Shown one piece after another: positions 1,100-8,976 of a stretch of DNA of 12,400 bases. A program made the translations under genes and the position numbers. This stretch comes from Coleofasciculus sp. S288 (GTDB taxonomy: Bacteria > Cyanobacteriota > Cyanobacteriia > Cyanobacteriales > Coleofasciculaceae). The stretch spans positions 1 through 12,400 of the forward strand of contig JAIUYC010000022.1 in NCBI GenBank assembly GCA_020216575.1. The letters run 5' to 3'. Under the pieces are notes generated by a model. That model saw only the letters and a list, made by a program, of their open reading frames with translations, searched no databases and was not told where the DNA came from. Numbering within the stretch: the stretch's first letter is position 1; each line of letters opens with the position of its first letter.

Positions 1100-1365
1100 C
1101 TCTTAACCTCCACTTCAACCCTAGCGGCAAACAGCGCTTCTAACGGGTTTCGACACAAAGCTGGCTCTTGCCGCCTACACATAAAACTAAATCTCTACGA
1201 AAAGATAAAAATTACTACCAGATGGAAGCCCATCTCGTTACATTCTCATCAAATCCTGAGGCTACCTCAGATTATCACTGAGAAATTTGAGTACCGATTG
1301 ACTTTTCATCGACTTTGTCAAAACTGGCGTTTAAGATAATCCTTGTACCTCTTCCAGGATGCGCT
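1100..1365. promoter_or_regulatory. Divergent intergenic region between two AAA_35 genes
   Basis: This 266-bp gap separates the two head-to-head ATPase genes and must hold both promoters. The clearest structure is a perfect hairpin-type repeat at 1256-1270, CTGAGG-CTA-CCTCAG. A second weak dyad, TTGAC at 1298 and GTCAA ending at 1320, lies closer to the right-hand gene. I could not place convincing -35/-10 pairs for either gene. Open frames crossing this gap look like chance. Confidence 0.4.
1106..1111 (-). promoter_or_regulatory. Ribosome binding site of the left AAA_35 gene
   Basis: The minus strand reads GGAGGT, 6 nt before the ATG at 1099. It is a strong Shine-Dalgarno match and fixes the start of the leftmost gene. 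Confidence 0.75.
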
Positions 1366-3132
1366 ATGCCCCGATCGCTGAGGGTGCGTGAAGATTACAT
1401 TGCCAAAGTCAAATCCTCTCTCCTACGCAATGGCTTTCCCAACCAGAGACTATTAGCGGAACATTTAGAGATAGCTCAATCCACTGTTAGCAACTTCCTC
1501 AATGGCATACCCGTCGATTTGAGGAATTTTCTGGAAATTTGTCGGGTTTTGGGTCAGGAATGGCGAGATATCGCCAATTTTGACCAGGAACCGCCATTAG
1601 AGGAACCCCCTAATGTTAGAGCCAAAGTTGCGATCGGCGATTGCTGCCCACACCTCAACCTCGCTGCCATGTTGCAACAAAGCCTAAGAGACACTGGTCA
1701 TGAAGTCTTCATGGCGGAGAAAAACTCTTCCTTGGGAGCCTACTTAAAGCAGTGTGACTACCTGGTGCTGCTGATATCTCAGCAATCTGCCGTCAGTGAA
1801 ATGGTTTTAGAGGTGGTACAACAGGTCAAGGAGTTGCACAACACCACCCCTCAAAAGCCAGCACTTTTTCCAATTTGTGTAGACTTATCTCCAGATTCAC
1901 CCCTGAGTTTTGACTTGCTGGGCTATTTGCAGGGGGTTCAGGCATGGCAGTGGCGTTCTTGTGACGACAGTTCAACTCTGCTGAATGAAGTTACTAGCGT
2001 ACTCAAAGAAGGTCGTATCTCCTTACCTGCTAACCATAAATTGGCAGTGAACCTGCAAACTCTTACCCTCCAAACGGGGAACAAACCCCTACCAGTAGCT
2101 CGACCAGAATTACCTTCAGGGCAAGTGGACTTGGCTTCTCCCTTTTATATCGAGCGTCCCCCCATTGAGGAACGCTGTTATGAGACGATAACACAGCCAG
2201 GAGCCCTTATCCGCATCAAAGCCCCCAGGCAGATGGGCAAAACTTCCCTAATGGCCAGAATTCTCCATCACGCCGAACAGCAAGGCTCTCGTACAGTTGC
2301 CTTGAGCTTGCAGTTAGCCAATCAGAGGGTTTTCGCCAATTCGGATAAATTCTTACAGTGGTTTTGTGCCATTGTCGGTCTAGAGCTAGGAGTACCCGAC
2401 CAATTAGCCAAGTATTGGGAGATGGCTGAAATTGCTGGTAGTAATATCAGTTGCAGGGCTTACTTTGAGCAATATCTCTTGCCACAACTTGACCGTCCTT
2501 TAACTCTCGGCTTGGACGAAATTGATTGTGTTTTCCCTTACCAAGAAATCGCCGATGACTTTTTTGGGTTGTTGCGAGCGTTGCATGAAGAAGCCAAACG
2601 GCGCGATATTTGGAAAAAGTTTCGCTTGGTCGTTGTACATTCCACGGAAGTTTATGTTCCCCTGGATATGAATAAATCCCCCTTTAATGTGGGGCTACCA
2701 ATTGAATTACCCGAGTTTACCTCACAACAGGTGCAAGATTTAGCGAGACGGCACGGACTCGATTGGAATACAGGTGAAGTCGAAAAGCTGATGGCTCTTG
2801 TGGGAGGGCATCCCTATTTATTGCGACTAGCGATGTATGCGATCGCACGTCAAGACGTTACCCTTGACACTGTACTGCTTTCTGCTCCCACAGAAGCAGG
2901 ACTTTACAGTGACCATCTGCGACGCCACCTATGGAATCTGGAAAAGCATCCAGAGTTGCTGGAGGCGATGCGAGAGGTGGCAATCGCTTCCAGCCCGGTG
3001 CGATTACCAGCAGTGCAAGCGTTTAAGTTAAACAGCATGGGGCTAGTGCGGCTGTGTGGCAATGAAGTGACTCCCCGATGCCAATTGTACGAGCAATATT
3101 TCCGCGAACGACTAGGGGATAAAGCGCTTTAG
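1366..3132 (+). CDS. HTH / TIR-like / AAA_35 STAND-type ATPase
   Basis: A 588-residue, apparently complete protein. The ATG at 1366 is preferred over a TTG at 1315 because AGGA lies 6 nt upstream and the family usually begins MPRSLRVRE. Residues 24-66 form a helix-turn-helix (QRLLAEHLEIAQSTVSNFLNG). Residues 85-215 resemble the TIR-like domain found in cyanobacterial AAA_35 proteins: GHEVFMA, DYLVLLIS and SEMVLEVV are visible. Residues 250-585 are AAA_35, with Walker A KAPRQMGKTS at 285-294, Walker B LGLDEID at 381-387 and GGHPYLLR at 480-487. The plan suggests a sensor or effector switch, possibly DNA-bound, of the STAND/NLR-like type. The TIR-like part is shorter than usual around its expected catalytic glutamate, so NADase activity is doubtful. 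It is divergent from a second AAA_35 gene. Confidence 0.88.
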   Translation: MPRSLRVREDYIAKVKSSLLRNGFPNQRLLAEHLEIAQSTVSNFLNGIPVDLRNFLEICRVLGQEWRDIANFDQEPPLEEPPNVRAKVAIGDCCPHLNLAAMLQQSLRDTGHEVFMAEKNSSLGAYLKQCDYLVLLISQQSAVSEMVLEVVQQVKELHNTTPQKPALFPICVDLSPDSPLSFDLLGYLQGVQAWQWRSCDDSSTLLNEVTSVLKEGRISLPANHKLAVNLQTLTLQTGNKPLPVARPELPSGQVDLASPFYIERPPIEERCYETITQPGALIRIKAPRQMGKTSLMARILHHAEQQGSRTVALSLQLANQRVFANSDKFLQWFCAIVGLELGVPDQLAKYWEMAEIAGSNISCRAYFEQYLLPQLDRPLTLGLDEIDCVFPYQEIADDFFGLLRALHEEAKRRDIWKKFRLVVVHSTEVYVPLDMNKSPFNVGLPIELPEFTSQQVQDLARRHGLDWNTGEVEKLMALVGGHPYLLRLAMYAIARQDVTLDTVLLSAPTEAGLYSDHLRRHLWNLEKHPELLEAMREVAIASSPVRLPAVQAFKLNSMGLVRLCGNEVTPRCQLYEQYFRERLGDKAL

Positions 3133-3254: not shown

Positions 3255-3537
3255 GAAACGTATTTTCTCTTTACTAACTCCCACCGCTACTGCCGCTGCA
3301 ATTTTAATGAGTGGGATACCACCCGCTCAAGCCCAAGAGCTTGTATTGACTCCAATGTTCAACTCGGTGGTCGCGCAACACTCCCCAGAAATCCCTAGCC
3401 GACAACTAGAGTTGTCTCCACCACTACCAGGTAATGGCAGACCTGACGAGAGAACAGATGCGGGAACCCGTGCTGCACAACCACCTGTGGCGCTACCCGA
3501 AAAAGCCTTTTCAAAAGTTTTGAATTTTGAGTTTTGA
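3253..3537 (+). CDS. Short secreted protein, possible N-terminal DUF928 remnant
   Basis: Ninety-four residues from the ATG at 3253. It begins MKRIFSLLTP, followed by a hydrophobic stretch and PPAQAQE, a classic Sec signal peptide with likely cleavage after AQA. The mature part contains LPGNGRPDERTDAGTRAA, which resembles the opening of cyanobacterial DUF928 proteins (usually more than 200 residues). The ORF ends KVLNFEF because it reads into a 3516-3575 inverted repeat, so the protein looks cut short and is probably a relic. An in-frame ATG at 3223 would add ten residues. No ribosome binding site is evident. DUF928 assignment is tentative; function is unknown. Confidence 0.45.
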   Translation: MKRIFSLLTPTATAAAILMSGIPPAQAQELVLTPMFNSVVAQHSPEIPSRQLELSPPLPGNGRPDERTDAGTRAAQPPVALPEKAFSKVLNFEF

Positions 3538-3575
3538 ATTAACAATCTTTAACTCATAACTCAAAATTCATAACT
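3516..3575. repeat. Imperfect 25-bp inverted repeat of the AT-rich cyanobacterial intergenic type
   Basis: The arms at 3516-3540 and 3551-3575 are complementary at 22 of 25 positions around a 10-nt loop. Each arm is built from TTGAATTTTGAGTT-like units. It is followed by CCGC-GTTA-GCGG at 3583-3594, a small second stem. Repeats of this look are scattered between genes in filamentous cyanobacteria. Here the left arm supplies the stop and last codons of the secreted-protein ORF, suggesting it truncated that gene. Confidence 0.65.
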
Positions 3576-3673
3576 CATAACTCCGCGTTAGCGGTGAGCG
3601 TGTCGGGTCTGTCATTAAACCGCAATAGCACACAAGTTGAACATCAAGTTACAGCACTTTTGAGGAGTTCCAA

Positions 3674-5003: not shown

Positions 5004-5193
5004 TCACGGTTCCTACATCCTTGGCATCACCGTTCATGGGTTTTGGCAGTGCAACACGATGCCAAACATCGACTCTGTGTCATCCCCCCTTTTTTTGGGA
5101 CTGTCACATCGAGTCAGAGTGCCTGACTCAGTGGGGATTCATAACTTTATTTGTTGAGCACTGGCTGAGAGGCGAGTACTTTCATAAAGCTGC
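5004..5193. other. Degenerate left flank of the mobile element with two small inverted repeats
   Basis: No convincing gene is present; the plus-strand open frame here has no family-like features. Two perfect inverted repeats are visible. One is TTTGGCA/TGCCAAA around 5041-5066. The other is GAGTCAG-AGTGC-CTGACTC at 5111-5129. A T7 run at 5090-5099 precedes the second rather than following it, so it is not a plus-strand intrinsic terminator. Confidence 0.35.
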
Positions 5194-5225
5194 CGGCTAC
5201 CAACTTAAGGCCGGACAAAACTAAG
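5194..5225 (+). repeat. Left terminal inverted repeat
   Basis: It begins CGGCTACCAACTTAAGGC. The first 18 bases are identical to the inverted right end, and 29 of 32 match overall; differences are at offsets 19, 26 and 28. The outer boundary could be off by a few bases. Confidence 0.85.
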
Positions 5226-5240
5226 GAGGTTTGCGGAACA

Positions 5241-5263
5241 GTTCGCGGCATTTCAACGCGAAC
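5241..5263. promoter_or_regulatory. Dyad GTTCGCG-N9-CGCGAAC, left copy
   Basis: The 7-bp arms are perfect with a 9-nt spacer (GCATTTCAA). It lies 15 bp inside the left terminal repeat and 20 bp past the stop of the minus-strand partner gene. Same arms and same spacing as two other copies in the element. Probably a protein-binding site; a hairpin role cannot be excluded. Confidence 0.75.
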
Positions 5264-5283
5264 AGAATCACCTAACCAATTGT

Positions 5284-5748
5284 TTACCCCTGATTTTTAC
5301 TCTTATGCTGATTTTTATTGTTTTTGGTTTCTGGATATAAGTCCGACCAACTTTGCTTGAGAAAGTCAATGGCTTTGGTTAATTCATCAATTTGAACTCT
5401 TCTGACCACCTGGACAACCCCATCAACATGAGCTGCACTTCCCGCAGGGCCAAGATGTTTGTAGCGAGAGCAGGCTCTGCGGTCTGATGCTTTGGGGAAA
5501 ATTGGCGTTTTGGCTTGTAACTTATAGTACCAGTAAGTTTGGCGTTGCCCTCGTGCTTGGTAACGAGCCACATAACATCCTGATGGGGCAACTTCGCCCT
5601 CCGACTCAAGTTGGCTCTTACGGGCTTCCAGAAGTGTGATCGCCGATTGTAATCGCTCAGCTCTAGCAAGGGTGTCGTGTTCCTTATTAGTTTGGGTTTG
5701 GGGTGGCATGGTTGAAGGATTCAAGAGAACTGAATAAAATTTTCGCAT
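5284..5748 (-). CDS. Element-encoded partner protein of the transposase, unknown function
   Basis: A 154-residue protein with three parts. Residues 22-50 are a charged helix (ERLQSAITLLEARKSQLE). Residues 52-105 are a beta-rich, aromatic core (SGCYVARYQARGQRQTYWYY, then IFPK and KYKHLGPAG-like SRYKHLGPAG). Residues 108-140 are a second helix ending SWSDLY, and the tail is lysine/asparagine-rich. The helix, aromatic core, helix plan recalls DUF6788-type small proteins and a cyanobacterial family usually left hypothetical; that link is tentative. Divergent pairing with the transposase and the shared dyad suggest a DNA-binding accessory or regulator, which is inference. The ATG at 5748 lies in the central dyad; an in-frame ATG at 5709 is an equally good start. 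No catalytic motif is seen. Confidence 0.7.
   Translation of the reverse strand: MRKFYSVLLNPSTMPPQTQTNKEHDTLARAERLQSAITLLEARKSQLESEGEVAPSGCYVARYQARGQRQTYWYYKLQAKTPIFPKASDRRACSRYKHLGPAGSAAHVDGVVQVVRRVQIDELTKAIDFLKQSWSDLYPETKNNKNQHKSKNQG
5712..5740 (+). promoter_or_regulatory. Sigma70-type promoter for the transposase gene
   Basis: TTGAAG at 5712-5717 and TAAAAT at 5735-5740 are separated by exactly 17 nt. The predicted start, around 5747, falls at the edge of the central dyad at 5750-5772, an ideal place for a repressor. The promoter overlaps the first codons of the partner gene if that starts at 5748, but not if it starts at 5709. Confidence 0.5.
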
Positions 5749-5749
5749 T

Positions 5750-5772
5750 GTTCTCGATTAATTACCGCGAAC
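5750..5772. promoter_or_regulatory. Dyad GTTCTCG-N9-CGCGAAC, central copy between divergent starts
   Basis: Same layout as the terminal copies, with one mismatch in the left arm. Symmetry extends outward through both start codons: CATT before and AATG after, so the ATGs at 5748 and 5774 are mirror images around position 5761. It is a likely operator for both genes or a transposase-binding site. Confidence 0.75.
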
Positions 5773-5773
5773 A

Positions 5774-7366
5774 ATGCCGTTACTCCCACTCTCAATGAAC
5801 CTCAGACAACGTTGTCAAGCCGTCTTTCAGGCAGGCTACAAATTCGGTGAACAATCATTCCGTAGTCTTGCTGCTGCTACCAAATTATCCAAAAGTAGTG
5901 TCCATCGGCTGTATCATCGACTCCAAAAAAGAAATCAATATCCTGAATCTCAATTGTGGGAAACACAAGCCGGACAACAATGGCTGCGTTTGTTAGTGTT
6001 TGCGGCATTATTTGTGTTTGCCCTGGAAGGAGGCGTTGGCTGTGAGAGATTATCGGAATTTTTTCATCTGTTGCGTCTGCAACAACATATTGGCGTATCT
6101 CCCAGTGCCTTACGTCAGTTAAGAACCCACATGGAAGAGAAAATTCTAGAGTATCAACTACATGTTCAATCTCAATTGAAACAAGACGGTCGCGAAGTAG
6201 AACTTTGTGCGGCAGCCGATGAAAAGTTTTTCGATCAAGTTGTTCTAGTGATGCTGGATTTACCTTCCGGCTATATTTTAGTTGAGGAGTTAACAGAAAA
6301 TCGACAGTATTCGACTTGGCAGCTTTCTGCTCAACAAGTTCTAAAAGAGTTTGGATTCAAGGTCAAGTATTTCGTGAGCGACCGAGCCAAAGCTTTAGTA
6401 AAACTCGCTCTAAATGACCTAGGATGTCCCAGTATTGCTGACTTGTTCCATGCTCTGTTTGAATTAAGTAAGAGTCTGGGATGGGAACTCAATTGTTTAG
6501 CTAGTCGAATTGAAAAGCAACTCCAACTTGCTCGCTCTAATCACCAGTCAGCCGAGCTAATTAAACAATTAGAAACTGAACAATCTCTGTTGCAAAACTC
6601 AAACCGAATTTACCAGGATTGTTCTCATCGTATCAGTACTTCTTTACATCCTTTTGATATAGCTGATAGTTCTCCTCAAAGCAGCCTTCAAGTTAAAACC
6701 CTTCTGTTGAGAGAGGTTCATCAGCTTAAAGCTTTAAAGCAAGCTCACCGCTTGAAAGACCAGCGCGATAGTATTAATAAATTCGCACGCCAAGTTCAAG
6801 AGCTAGCCGCCGTGGTAGATATTTGGTGGTCATGGATTGATGGCTGTTTAGGGTCATACCAATTTGAATCTTCTCGTTTAGATTGGATTAAACAGCAGTT
6901 ACTGCCTGCTGTTTACTGGCAACAACAGGTGCGACGAACTAAAACTGAAACTCTTAAAAGAACCTATCAGCTTGCTTATCAACAGGCATGGGATGCTTTG
7001 ATGCATCATCCAGCTACAGCAACCGTCAGTCATACTAATTTACAGCAATGGTTAAATTGGGCGAGTTGGATGGCAAGTAAATTCCAACGCAGTTCTTCTC
7101 CTGTGGAAGGTCGCAATGGTTATTTGTCTCAGGTTTATCACAATCGTCGTGGCTTATCCTCAAGACGGCTAAAAGTCATGACACTCATCCATAATTTTCA
7201 CATCAAGCGTTGTGATGGCACGACAGCAGCCGAGCGTTTATTTGCCCAAAAATTTCCCGATCTATTCCAATGGGTTGTCTCCCAAATGGGAGAGCTGCCA
7301 ACACCTAGAAAGCCAAGAAAAAAACCTCTGGAAACAATGGTTGGTTCACCTACTGTCCCCTCTTAA
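5774..7366 (+). CDS. DDE-type transposase-like protein (DUF6399-like)
   Basis: A 530-residue intact ORF. Residues 24-52 form a helix-turn-helix (SLAAATKLSKSSVHRLYHRL). An RNase H-like core follows with candidate catalytic acids D149 in AAADEKFF, D203 in VSDRAKAL and E445 in SPVEGRNGYLSQ. About 110 residues of charged, coiled-coil-like sequence (240-350) sit between the second D and the E, as in transposases with an insertion domain. The tail, PRKPRKKPLE, is basic. I recall cyanobacterial proteins of this kind annotated as DUF6399 hypotheticals; the transposase role is inferred from the D-D-E pattern and from the terminal repeats around the gene. The ATG at 5774 overlaps the central dyad; an in-frame ATG at 5795 is an alternative. 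Neither has a good ribosome binding site. Confidence 0.8.
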   Translation: MPLLPLSMNLRQRCQAVFQAGYKFGEQSFRSLAAATKLSKSSVHRLYHRLQKRNQYPESQLWETQAGQQWLRLLVFAALFVFALEGGVGCERLSEFFHLLRLQQHIGVSPSALRQLRTHMEEKILEYQLHVQSQLKQDGREVELCAAADEKFFDQVVLVMLDLPSGYILVEELTENRQYSTWQLSAQQVLKEFGFKVKYFVSDRAKALVKLALNDLGCPSIADLFHALFELSKSLGWELNCLASRIEKQLQLARSNHQSAELIKQLETEQSLLQNSNRIYQDCSHRISTSLHPFDIADSSPQSSLQVKTLLLREVHQLKALKQAHRLKDQRDSINKFARQVQELAAVVDIWWSWIDGCLGSYQFESSRLDWIKQQLLPAVYWQQQVRRTKTETLKRTYQLAYQQAWDALMHHPATATVSHTNLQQWLNWASWMASKFQRSSSPVEGRNGYLSQVYHNRRGLSSRRLKVMTLIHNFHIKRCDGTTAAERLFAQKFPDLFQWVVSQMGELPTPRKPRKKPLETMVGSPTVPS

Positions 7367-7513
7367 TTTCAGCTTAGTTAGCTTTAAAATCCTTTCAATG
7401 TATGAACGAATTTCCAGTTCCCGGTTCTACCTGATGTAGAGGAAGGCTCTACTGGTTTCCCGCCTTTGATGGCATCACAATATCTTAATTTCTAGGGTCT
7501 TTCTGGTTCCTTG

Positions 7514-7536
7514 GTTCGCGACACATGGTCGCGAAC
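7514..7536. promoter_or_regulatory. Dyad GTTCGCG-N9-CGCGAAC, right copy
   Basis: Perfect 7-bp arms with spacer ACACATGGT; pairing extends inward to 9 bp (GTTCGCGAC/GTCGCGAAC). It lies 28 bp inside the right terminal repeat and 147 bp after the transposase stop. Same arms and spacing as the two other copies. The stretch 7367-7513 contains no gene. Confidence 0.75.
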
Positions 7537-7564
7537 TAAGCCCTCACTCCTTCTCTGCTTTTTT

Positions 7565-7596
7565 CTTAATCTTGTCCCGCCTTAAGTTGGTAGCCG
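7565..7596 (-). repeat. Right terminal inverted repeat
   Basis: Read on the minus strand it begins CGGCTACCAACTTAAGGC, matching the left end. Its outer edge abuts TAATCCC of the right flank, and its inner edge is a T-rich tract at 7558-7564. Confidence 0.85.
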
Positions 7597-7653
7597 TAAT
7601 CCCATCTATTAAATCATTGATTAACCAGGATATTCTCCCACCCCTGGTTTTGA

Positions 7654-8225: not shown

Positions 8226-8350
8226 GAGTGGTGCAGCGAGGTTCAGGTGGGGATTTAAGCGGCAGTTAGTTTGGCTTTCTCCCTGTTTGGCTGACAAACG
8301 TGCTGGAGCTTGAAACGATAGCAACCTCTACCGAACATTCATCATACGCC

Positions 8351-8976
8351 ATGAAAATTCTTGCAATTGGCGCAACAGGTTTTGTTGGCTTGCATGTAAT
8401 TCGCCAATTAATGATGCAGGGGCATCAAATTGCCCTTTTCCATCGAGGTAGCACCGCTGCAAGCGAACTGGACTCGCTCGTACATTTCTATGGCACGCGC
8501 AATCAGTTACCCAACTTTAAAGCTGAATTTGAACGATTTGCCCCCGATGTTGTTCTCGACATCATCCCTTATACAGAAGCACAAGCACGAGATGTTGTTA
8601 TGTGGAAAATGTTGCAGCAGCGATCGCACTAGCCGTCACAGACAATCGTGCAGCGGGACAAATTTACAACCTGGGTGAGCCAGTAACACCAACTCTATCT
8701 GAACGAATTCAGCGGCTTGGAAATTTGGTTGGTTGGGGTGGCAAGATAGTCATCCTTCCAAAGGAGCAACTGCCGCCTCATCTCCCGATGAATTTACAGT
8801 GGCAGTATCATTTGGCAACCGATACAGCCCGTTTTCGAGAAGAGTTAGGGTATGTTGAACCAATTGCTGAACAGGAAGCATTGCGGCAAACGATCGTCTG
8901 GGAGCAACAAAATCTGACCGCAACTAGTACCGAACAGTTGAATGATTATTTAGCAGAGGATAAAGCGATGGAATGA
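8351..8976 (+). pseudogene. NAD-dependent epimerase/SDR family gene with internal frameshifting deletion
   Basis: The N-terminal half starts MKILAIGATGFVGLHVIRQL, with the Rossmann motif G7xxG10xxG13, and continues FERFAPDVVLDIIPYTEAQA up to about 8597. The reading then jumps frame: the C-terminal half reads YVENVAAAIALAV from 8599, then GQIYNLGEP and VILPKEQLPPHL, ending at 8976. Both halves belong to the same extended/atypical SDR family, whose members have about 330 residues; 209 remain, so roughly 120 codons including the YxxxK active-site region are gone. The first frame ends early at 8632. The precise join suggests one clean deletion rather than slow decay. The product would be inactive. 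Confidence 0.85.

Follow-up and report, generated by a model that had tools for sequence, protein, structure and literature searches.

Introduction

The usual description of a bacterial insertion sequence is a transposase together with its ends. Some elements encode regulators of their own, such as InsA of IS1 and TnpR of Tn3 at res, which bind transposon ends or control sites as well as their own promoter, and IS200/IS605 elements have secondary structures just inside the ends that are read by the IS200-type transposase. In the 12,400-nucleotide stretch of Coleofasciculus sp. S288 DNA analysed here (the window), we found an insertion sequence in which a small partner gene accompanies the transposase gene. 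Like InsA and TnpR, its product is a small, element-encoded, predicted DNA-binding protein with sites at the ends and in the control region and with expected autoregulation, and the site positions would fit an end-binding repressor of the InsA type. Unlike those regulators, which are not known outside a single transposase family each, the partner family occurs with several. Element-encoded end-binding regulators are thus already known, and it is the sharing across transposase families that is unusual here.

Accessory genes have been described in other elements. Toxin-antitoxin gene pairs in Tn3-family transposons form an accessory module thought to be regulatory in transposition (PMC7157771); unlike the partner, these pairs belong to one transposon family and involve a toxin, and the abstract describes them without matched end sites. 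TnpB of IS605 and IS607 is an accessory gene common to elements with unrelated recombinases (PMC9956272), and in this the partner resembles it. TnpB, however, is an RNA-guided nuclease, and the partner is a small protein predicted to bind DNA at dyads of its own. Four ISKra4 elements, each with a different additional gene of unknown function, are reported in passages of PMC3942029; in the present set it is the partner that ISKra4 elements carry, whereas those passages neither identify the additional genes with this protein nor link them to dyads or to sharing between families. The subterminal hairpins of IS200/IS605 (compare PMC6006769) are likewise palindromes just inside both ends, but they are read by an IS200-type transposase, whereas the dyads here go with a DDE transposase and a half-site logic. 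In titles and abstract openings, a search with subscription papers and ISfinder entries outside its range, such a protein-dyad module was not found; DUF6399, the domain of the window transposase, was mentioned in no paper of the literature searched.

Results

An insertion sequence with two divergent genes

The element is bounded, as an insertion sequence should be, by terminal inverted repeats, which are 32 nt long (5194-5225 and 7565-7596) with 91% complementarity, and within it the small partner gene and the transposase gene are divergent (Table 1). The tips are placed as tabulated from relatives that share the terminal sequence GGCTACCAACTTAAGG and are flanked by target duplications of 7 bp, CCCTACC at L060 and GAAATAG at L065. 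The window copy itself has no target duplication, its flanks reading AGCTGCC (5188-5194) and GTAATCC (7596-7602), and the element may therefore have been rearranged after insertion.

Table 1. Positions of the insertion sequence and its parts within the window
Feature	Position	Strand	Remarks
Whole insertion sequence, tip to tip (GGCTACC...GGTAGCC)	5195..7595		2.4 kb; set from terminal inverted repeats and relatives' tips
Left terminal inverted repeat	5195..5225	+	Inverted-repeat pairing; tip common to relatives
Left-end dyad, GTTCGCG-N9-CGCGAAC	5241..5263		Exact; starts 46 bp inside the tip, past the partner's 3' end
Partner gene, 154 aa	5284..5748	-	Predicted dyad-binding protein; probable start Met14, 5709; helix, three strands, helix
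Middle dyad, GTTCTCG-N9-CGCGAAC (proposed operator)	5750..5772		Between the divergent genes
DDE transposase, 530 aa	5774..7366	+	PF19936/DUF6399; probable start Met8, 5795; many homologs 523 aa
Right-end dyad, GTTCGCG-N9-CGCGAAC	7514..7536		Exact; 59 bp from the tip
Right terminal inverted repeat	7565..7595	-	Inverted-repeat pairing; tip common to relatives

The transposase scored 212.8 bits against PF19936 (DUF6399; gathering cut-off 35.4) and has the conserved D, D and E residues on an RNase H-like fold, which places it among DDE enzymes. It is not a Y1 HuH transposase of the IS200/IS605 group, and no NCBIfam model matched up to E=1, so it was given no named insertion sequence family. Transposases of this type were present in 4 of 57 related genomes, the window's own included, with identities of 91-93% in G014 (broken), 45% in G042:C366 and 33-54% in pieces in G017 (broken). 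As a query on the genome contig collection, the transposase gave zero confirmed relatives.

Three dyads near the ends and between the genes

The initial annotation had described three GTTCGCG-N9-CGCGAAC dyads with 9-nt spacers and a single arm deviation among them, one near each end and one in the control region. All three were confirmed at their positions, and their arrangement is supported by the element map and by relatives, in which the counterpart of the left-end dyad lies downstream of the partner, that of the middle dyad upstream of the partner start and that of the right-end dyad at the far end. Three exact dyads with a 9-nt spacer were present in G014 and likewise in G042:C166, two exact and one with two mismatches in G042:C366, and one exact and one with a single mismatch in G017. 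The sole deviation in the window, G to T at arm position 5 of the middle dyad, is the usual form in IS4-type copies. CATT/AATG extends this dyad at 5746-5776, and the first ATG of both listed open reading frames falls inside the palindrome. Promoter-like and terminator-like sites showed no excess over shuffled sequence.

The pattern is rare outside the element, as the initial annotation had required. With up to three mismatches allowed, seven matches were found in the window against 0.29 in dinucleotide shuffles (maximum 3), and the best three (two exact, one single-mismatch) all lie within the element. The only exact dyads in the source genome assembly (5.57 Mb, 67% complete) are the two copies in the element, and single-mismatch dyads occur at three places, the middle site among them. 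Across 386 cyanobacterial genomes, nine contain the exact pattern. At least two exact sites occur in four of the 386 (the source genome, G113, G165 and G410), all with a partner match; the other five have one site each, about as frequent as a reversed control (seven genomes, once each), and two of these (G039 and G416) have weak or partial partner matches.

The broader pattern RTTCKCG-N9-CGMGAAY gave 138 sites, counted genome-wide and not each traced to a partner, in 17 of 23 partner-match genomes, and its reverse gave 9. Among 23 genomes from a single family, none with a partner match, it gave 11 sites in four genomes, and its reverse gave 1. Among these 11, six sites in G167 and two in G236 are no more than about 95 bases from a contig end, where collapsed repeats would be expected, and one in G143 is near IS4-type remnants; for one site in G236 and one in G335, neither the partner nor a reference transposase was found within the stretch examined. 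In viral contigs the exact dyad occurred in at least 120 stretches, but a single dyad is not diagnostic, because the 80 matches listed all have one dyad each and never a set.

A small partner protein with a predicted three-stranded sheet

The partner of the window had no Pfam or NCBIfam match above cut-off, and 35 of its relatives, compared with Pfam, gave only weak coiled-coil-like matches. In its AlphaFold2 model (pLDDT 86), three strands (59-66, 71-78 and 96-101, full numbering) lie between two long helices. Fold searches returned helical look-alikes only, and none of the solved structures (PDB) was clearly similar.

A profile of the partner matched 25 of 386 cyanobacterial genomes, several of the weakest matches being distant proteins or relics, and 36 plasmid records, of which 15 were examined. 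Searching the genome contig collection gave 165 stretches; 80 were kept, about 56 of them Crocosphaera watsonii copies. Partner relatives were not found in viral contigs. Distant stand-alone cyanobacterial proteins (L238, L239, L240, L241 and L242) have the partner's VAP...YYKL...LG...RR pattern without such dyads, and the module may have originated from proteins of this kind. The distant partner-like proteins of G169, G324, G107, G206:C1 and G182:C3 were accompanied by no exact palindromes that combine these arms with a 9-nt spacer.

The dyads accompany the partner across transposase families

The transposases adjoining the partner were DUF6399, IS4 (NF033592), IS1182 (NF033551), ISKra4 (NF033572) and NF041680 proteins, together with IS701-like and ISKra4-like ones whose assignments lie below the NCBIfam cut-off. 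Plasmid annotations at the same place name an ISKra4-like ISMic1 element, a DUF6399 protein, IS4 transposases and an ISKra4 transposase. Target duplications vary with transposase family (for example, 8 bp at L224 and 9 bp at L229), as do the tips. The middle dyad precedes the partner both where the transposase is divergent and where it runs in the same direction (ISKra4). Different transposases have arms in common, ATTCGCG being found with IS1182 and ISKra4 and TTAGCG with NF041680 and ISKra4-like enzymes. At L175, L176 and L181 the partner and dyads are present and none of 12 reference transposases matched within 2.5 kb, and in G113 spacer-9 dyads (one exact, one single-mismatch) flank a partner homolog that has no DUF6399 neighbour. 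The constant companion of the dyads is the small partner gene, not the transposase.

G113 also contains a 2-kb NF041680 element in two copies (L045, G113:C1 2138-4190, and L046) with GTTCGCG dyads at both ends and no partner, and the partner is on another contig; this arrangement hints that the element may use the partner in trans. DUF6399 pieces without a partner in G172 were fragments and uninformative as a test of the link between dyad and partner.

The spacer was counted around 52 partner loci, which include near-identical copies and represent a few Crocosphaera copies by one each. With the motif NTTMKCK, a spacer of 9 accounted for 108 sites, and spacers of 8, 5, 10, 14, 6, 11, 12, 4, 13 and 7 for 4, 3, 3, 3, 2, 2, 2, 1, 1 and 0. 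When the halves differed by at most one base, the counts were 104 for spacer 9, 4 for 8, 2 for 10 and one each for 5, 6, 11 and 12. Four dyads with other spacers look like true sites, because they have full identical arms and lie close to the partner: L070 and L077 (8), L129 (10) and L186 (11). A strictly 9-nt spacer is ruled out by these four, and the preference for 9 nt is strong, not absolute.

Dyads usually lie about 45-100 bp before the partner, about 380-485 bp after its start and at the far end beyond the transposase. Where a locus has both end sites and its inverted repeat is clear, which is not so at L136, the end dyads lie about 26-95 bp in from the tips. When the loci were grouped at 80% identity into 32 clusters, spacer-9 sites were found at all three places in 13 clusters, upstream and downstream in 12, downstream and at the far end in 3 and at one place only in 4. 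Some absent sites reflect decayed elements or contig ends, and 12 of the 32 clusters have no far-end site in the DNA covered; no such dyads were found at L071 and L131. In IS4-type copies (L177-L180, L184 and L185) the two halves are unlike and mirrored, the outer half at either end being GTTCGCG and the inner half GTTCTCG.

Arm bases change together with partner residues

The arms vary symmetrically, with pairs such as ATTCGCG/CGCGAAT, CTTCGCG/CGCGAAG, GTTCTCT/AGAGAAC and GTTAGCG/CGCTAAC. Positions 1, 4, 5 and 7 alone are informative, because the collecting motif fixes 2, 3 and 6. We compared arms and partner sequences at the 60 of 71 partner loci with a spacer-9 site (32 clusters); L070, L071, L077, L078, L131, L165, L167, L190, L192, L210 and L211 were dropped for want of one. 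The best-scoring partner columns were 98 for arm position 4, 76 for position 7, 78 for position 5, and 65 and 67 for position 1. At position 4, the three clusters with A all have Tyr98 (the third read in a shifted frame) and the 29 with C all have His98. At position 7, Gln76 occurs in all six clusters with T and in none of the 26 with G; L070 and L077, which lie outside this set and have GTTCTCT arms with a spacer of 8, also have Gln76. The pairing at position 1 is looser, with Gln67 in six of eight A clusters and His67 in the single C cluster; the exceptions are L226 (Gly67 with A1), L225 (Ser67, mixed) and Crocosphaera (Gly67, mixed).

These statistics ignore descent, and the independent events number two for position 4 and one for position 7, so few that sign tests were not significant. 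On a tree built without columns 67, 76, 78 and 98, Tyr98 with A4 has two origins, and a single clade was rejected (p-AU 0.0136, tested with an earlier tree already known). The Tyr98-like relics L243 and L244 have kept no clear dyad in which the predicted TTAGCG arms would show. In the model, residues 65, 76, 78 and 98 fall within predicted strands and residue 67 immediately after the first, so that the co-varying residues would all lie on or beside the three-stranded sheet.

The partner is the likely reader of the dyads, because they follow its gene and their arms change with its residues, and the sequence comparisons strongly support this reading. The initial annotation had taken the dyad for a protein-binding site and not a copied repeat, a view that is supported here. 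It had named the partner product or the transposase helix-turn-helix as the binder. Co-variation and the association of dyad and partner favour the former; the latter is unsupported, since dyads are kept beside transposases that are unrelated to one another and their arms vary with the partner. The idea that the dyads always come in threes around this gene pair proved too narrow: what is constant is the small gene, with all three spacer-9 sites in 13 of 32 clusters. Copies without dyads or with variable spacers were to count against the proposal, and on this point relatives do carry dyads, with spacers of 9 save for the two of 8, one of 10 and one of 11.

Discussion

From the architecture of the element, the preferred spacing, the subterminal position of the sites, their association with the small gene and the joint change of arms and protein, we infer a partner that binds DNA as a dimer, represses transcription and affects transposition. 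We consider it probable that this dimeric protein marks both ends and controls the promoter region, as a kit common to insertion sequences with different transposases. Alongside its DDE transposase the element would encode a small reader protein for the 23-bp dyad, with one subunit on each 7-bp half-site, contact probably being made through the predicted three-stranded beta sheet, one sheet per half-site. The long helices would join the two subunits across the 9-nt spacer, a span that seems feasible with half-site centres 16 bp apart. Occupancy of the middle site would place the protein between the starts of the two divergent genes and hold down the transcription of each; occupancy of the subterminal pair of sites would mark the ends of the element or bring them together, and would in this way govern the manner or timing of transposase action. 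Protein and sites would then be portable among elements. Four odd-spacer sites against 104 with a spacer of 9 leave our confidence in this explanation unchanged. With somewhat more doubt than conviction, we also propose that the module is a transposase-agnostic plug-in, an unrecognised beta-sheet protein family with dyads of its own at its operator and at both ends, which would pair or license the ends whatever the transposase and would have been exchanged among several unrelated cyanobacterial insertion sequence families, with residues 67/76/78/98 as a code for arm positions 1/7/5/4 and with possible use in trans by elements like that of G113.

Pure autoregulation, in which the protein represses its own promoter region only and the end sites are spare operators or a block to read-through, would suit a small element-encoded protein with a site between divergent starts. 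We judge it unlikely, though deserving of some weight: both ends have a site at similar depth across families, even beyond the 3' side of the partner, which operators alone would not need. It is improbable that the transposase reads the dyads as an internal part of end recognition while the small protein has another role. The dyads do adjoin the terminal inverted repeats, of which they form a continuation in IS4 copies, where the outer and inner halves are disposed alike at both ends, and in G113 they occur with an NF041680 transposase in an element that has no partner. Identical arms nevertheless occur with different transposase families and follow partner residues, and ISKra4-type elements alone have ATTCGCG, CTTCGCG, GTTCGCG and GTTAGCG arms (one assigned by tip only, two below the NCBIfam cut-off); moreover, the loci without a match to any reference transposase keep their dyads.

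That the dyads act as RNA or single-strand hairpins, with a 7-bp stem and a 9-nt loop guarding ends or capping transcripts, would agree with arms that are complementary and change symmetrically. Yet in 32 of 142 sites, mostly IS4-type, the halves differ at base 5 and would mispair in mid-stem (the motif admits no G-T pair there); such sites speak against a hairpin, because each half fits the motif while the two mispair. As the arm bases also change with partner residues, we find this reading very improbable. Use of the dyads by a host DNA-binding protein is harder still to credit: similar arms do occur across several cyanobacterial families, but few sites occur where a genome has no partner match, and the arms differ by element within one genome (G266, with GTTCKCG and ATTCGCG elements).

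On the preferred reading, in which the partner marks the ends and acts on the promoter region, several transposase families share a second protein that has end sites of its own, and this points to control of transposition independent of the catalytic enzyme. The natural variation suggests a protein-DNA code open to single swaps, and the dyad triplet is a simple signature with which to find and delimit such elements.

Other features of the window

Elsewhere in the window, the product of the gene at 1315-3132 has an AAA_35 domain and weakly matches TIR and, at its N terminus, a helix-turn-helix, and the open reading frame at 2-1099 lies on the opposite strand to it. Two overlapping open reading frames at 8300-8976 look by eye like one epimerase-like gene that is not continuous. 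A long imperfect inverted repeat with 52-nt arms and a 6-nt loop occupies 3491-3600.
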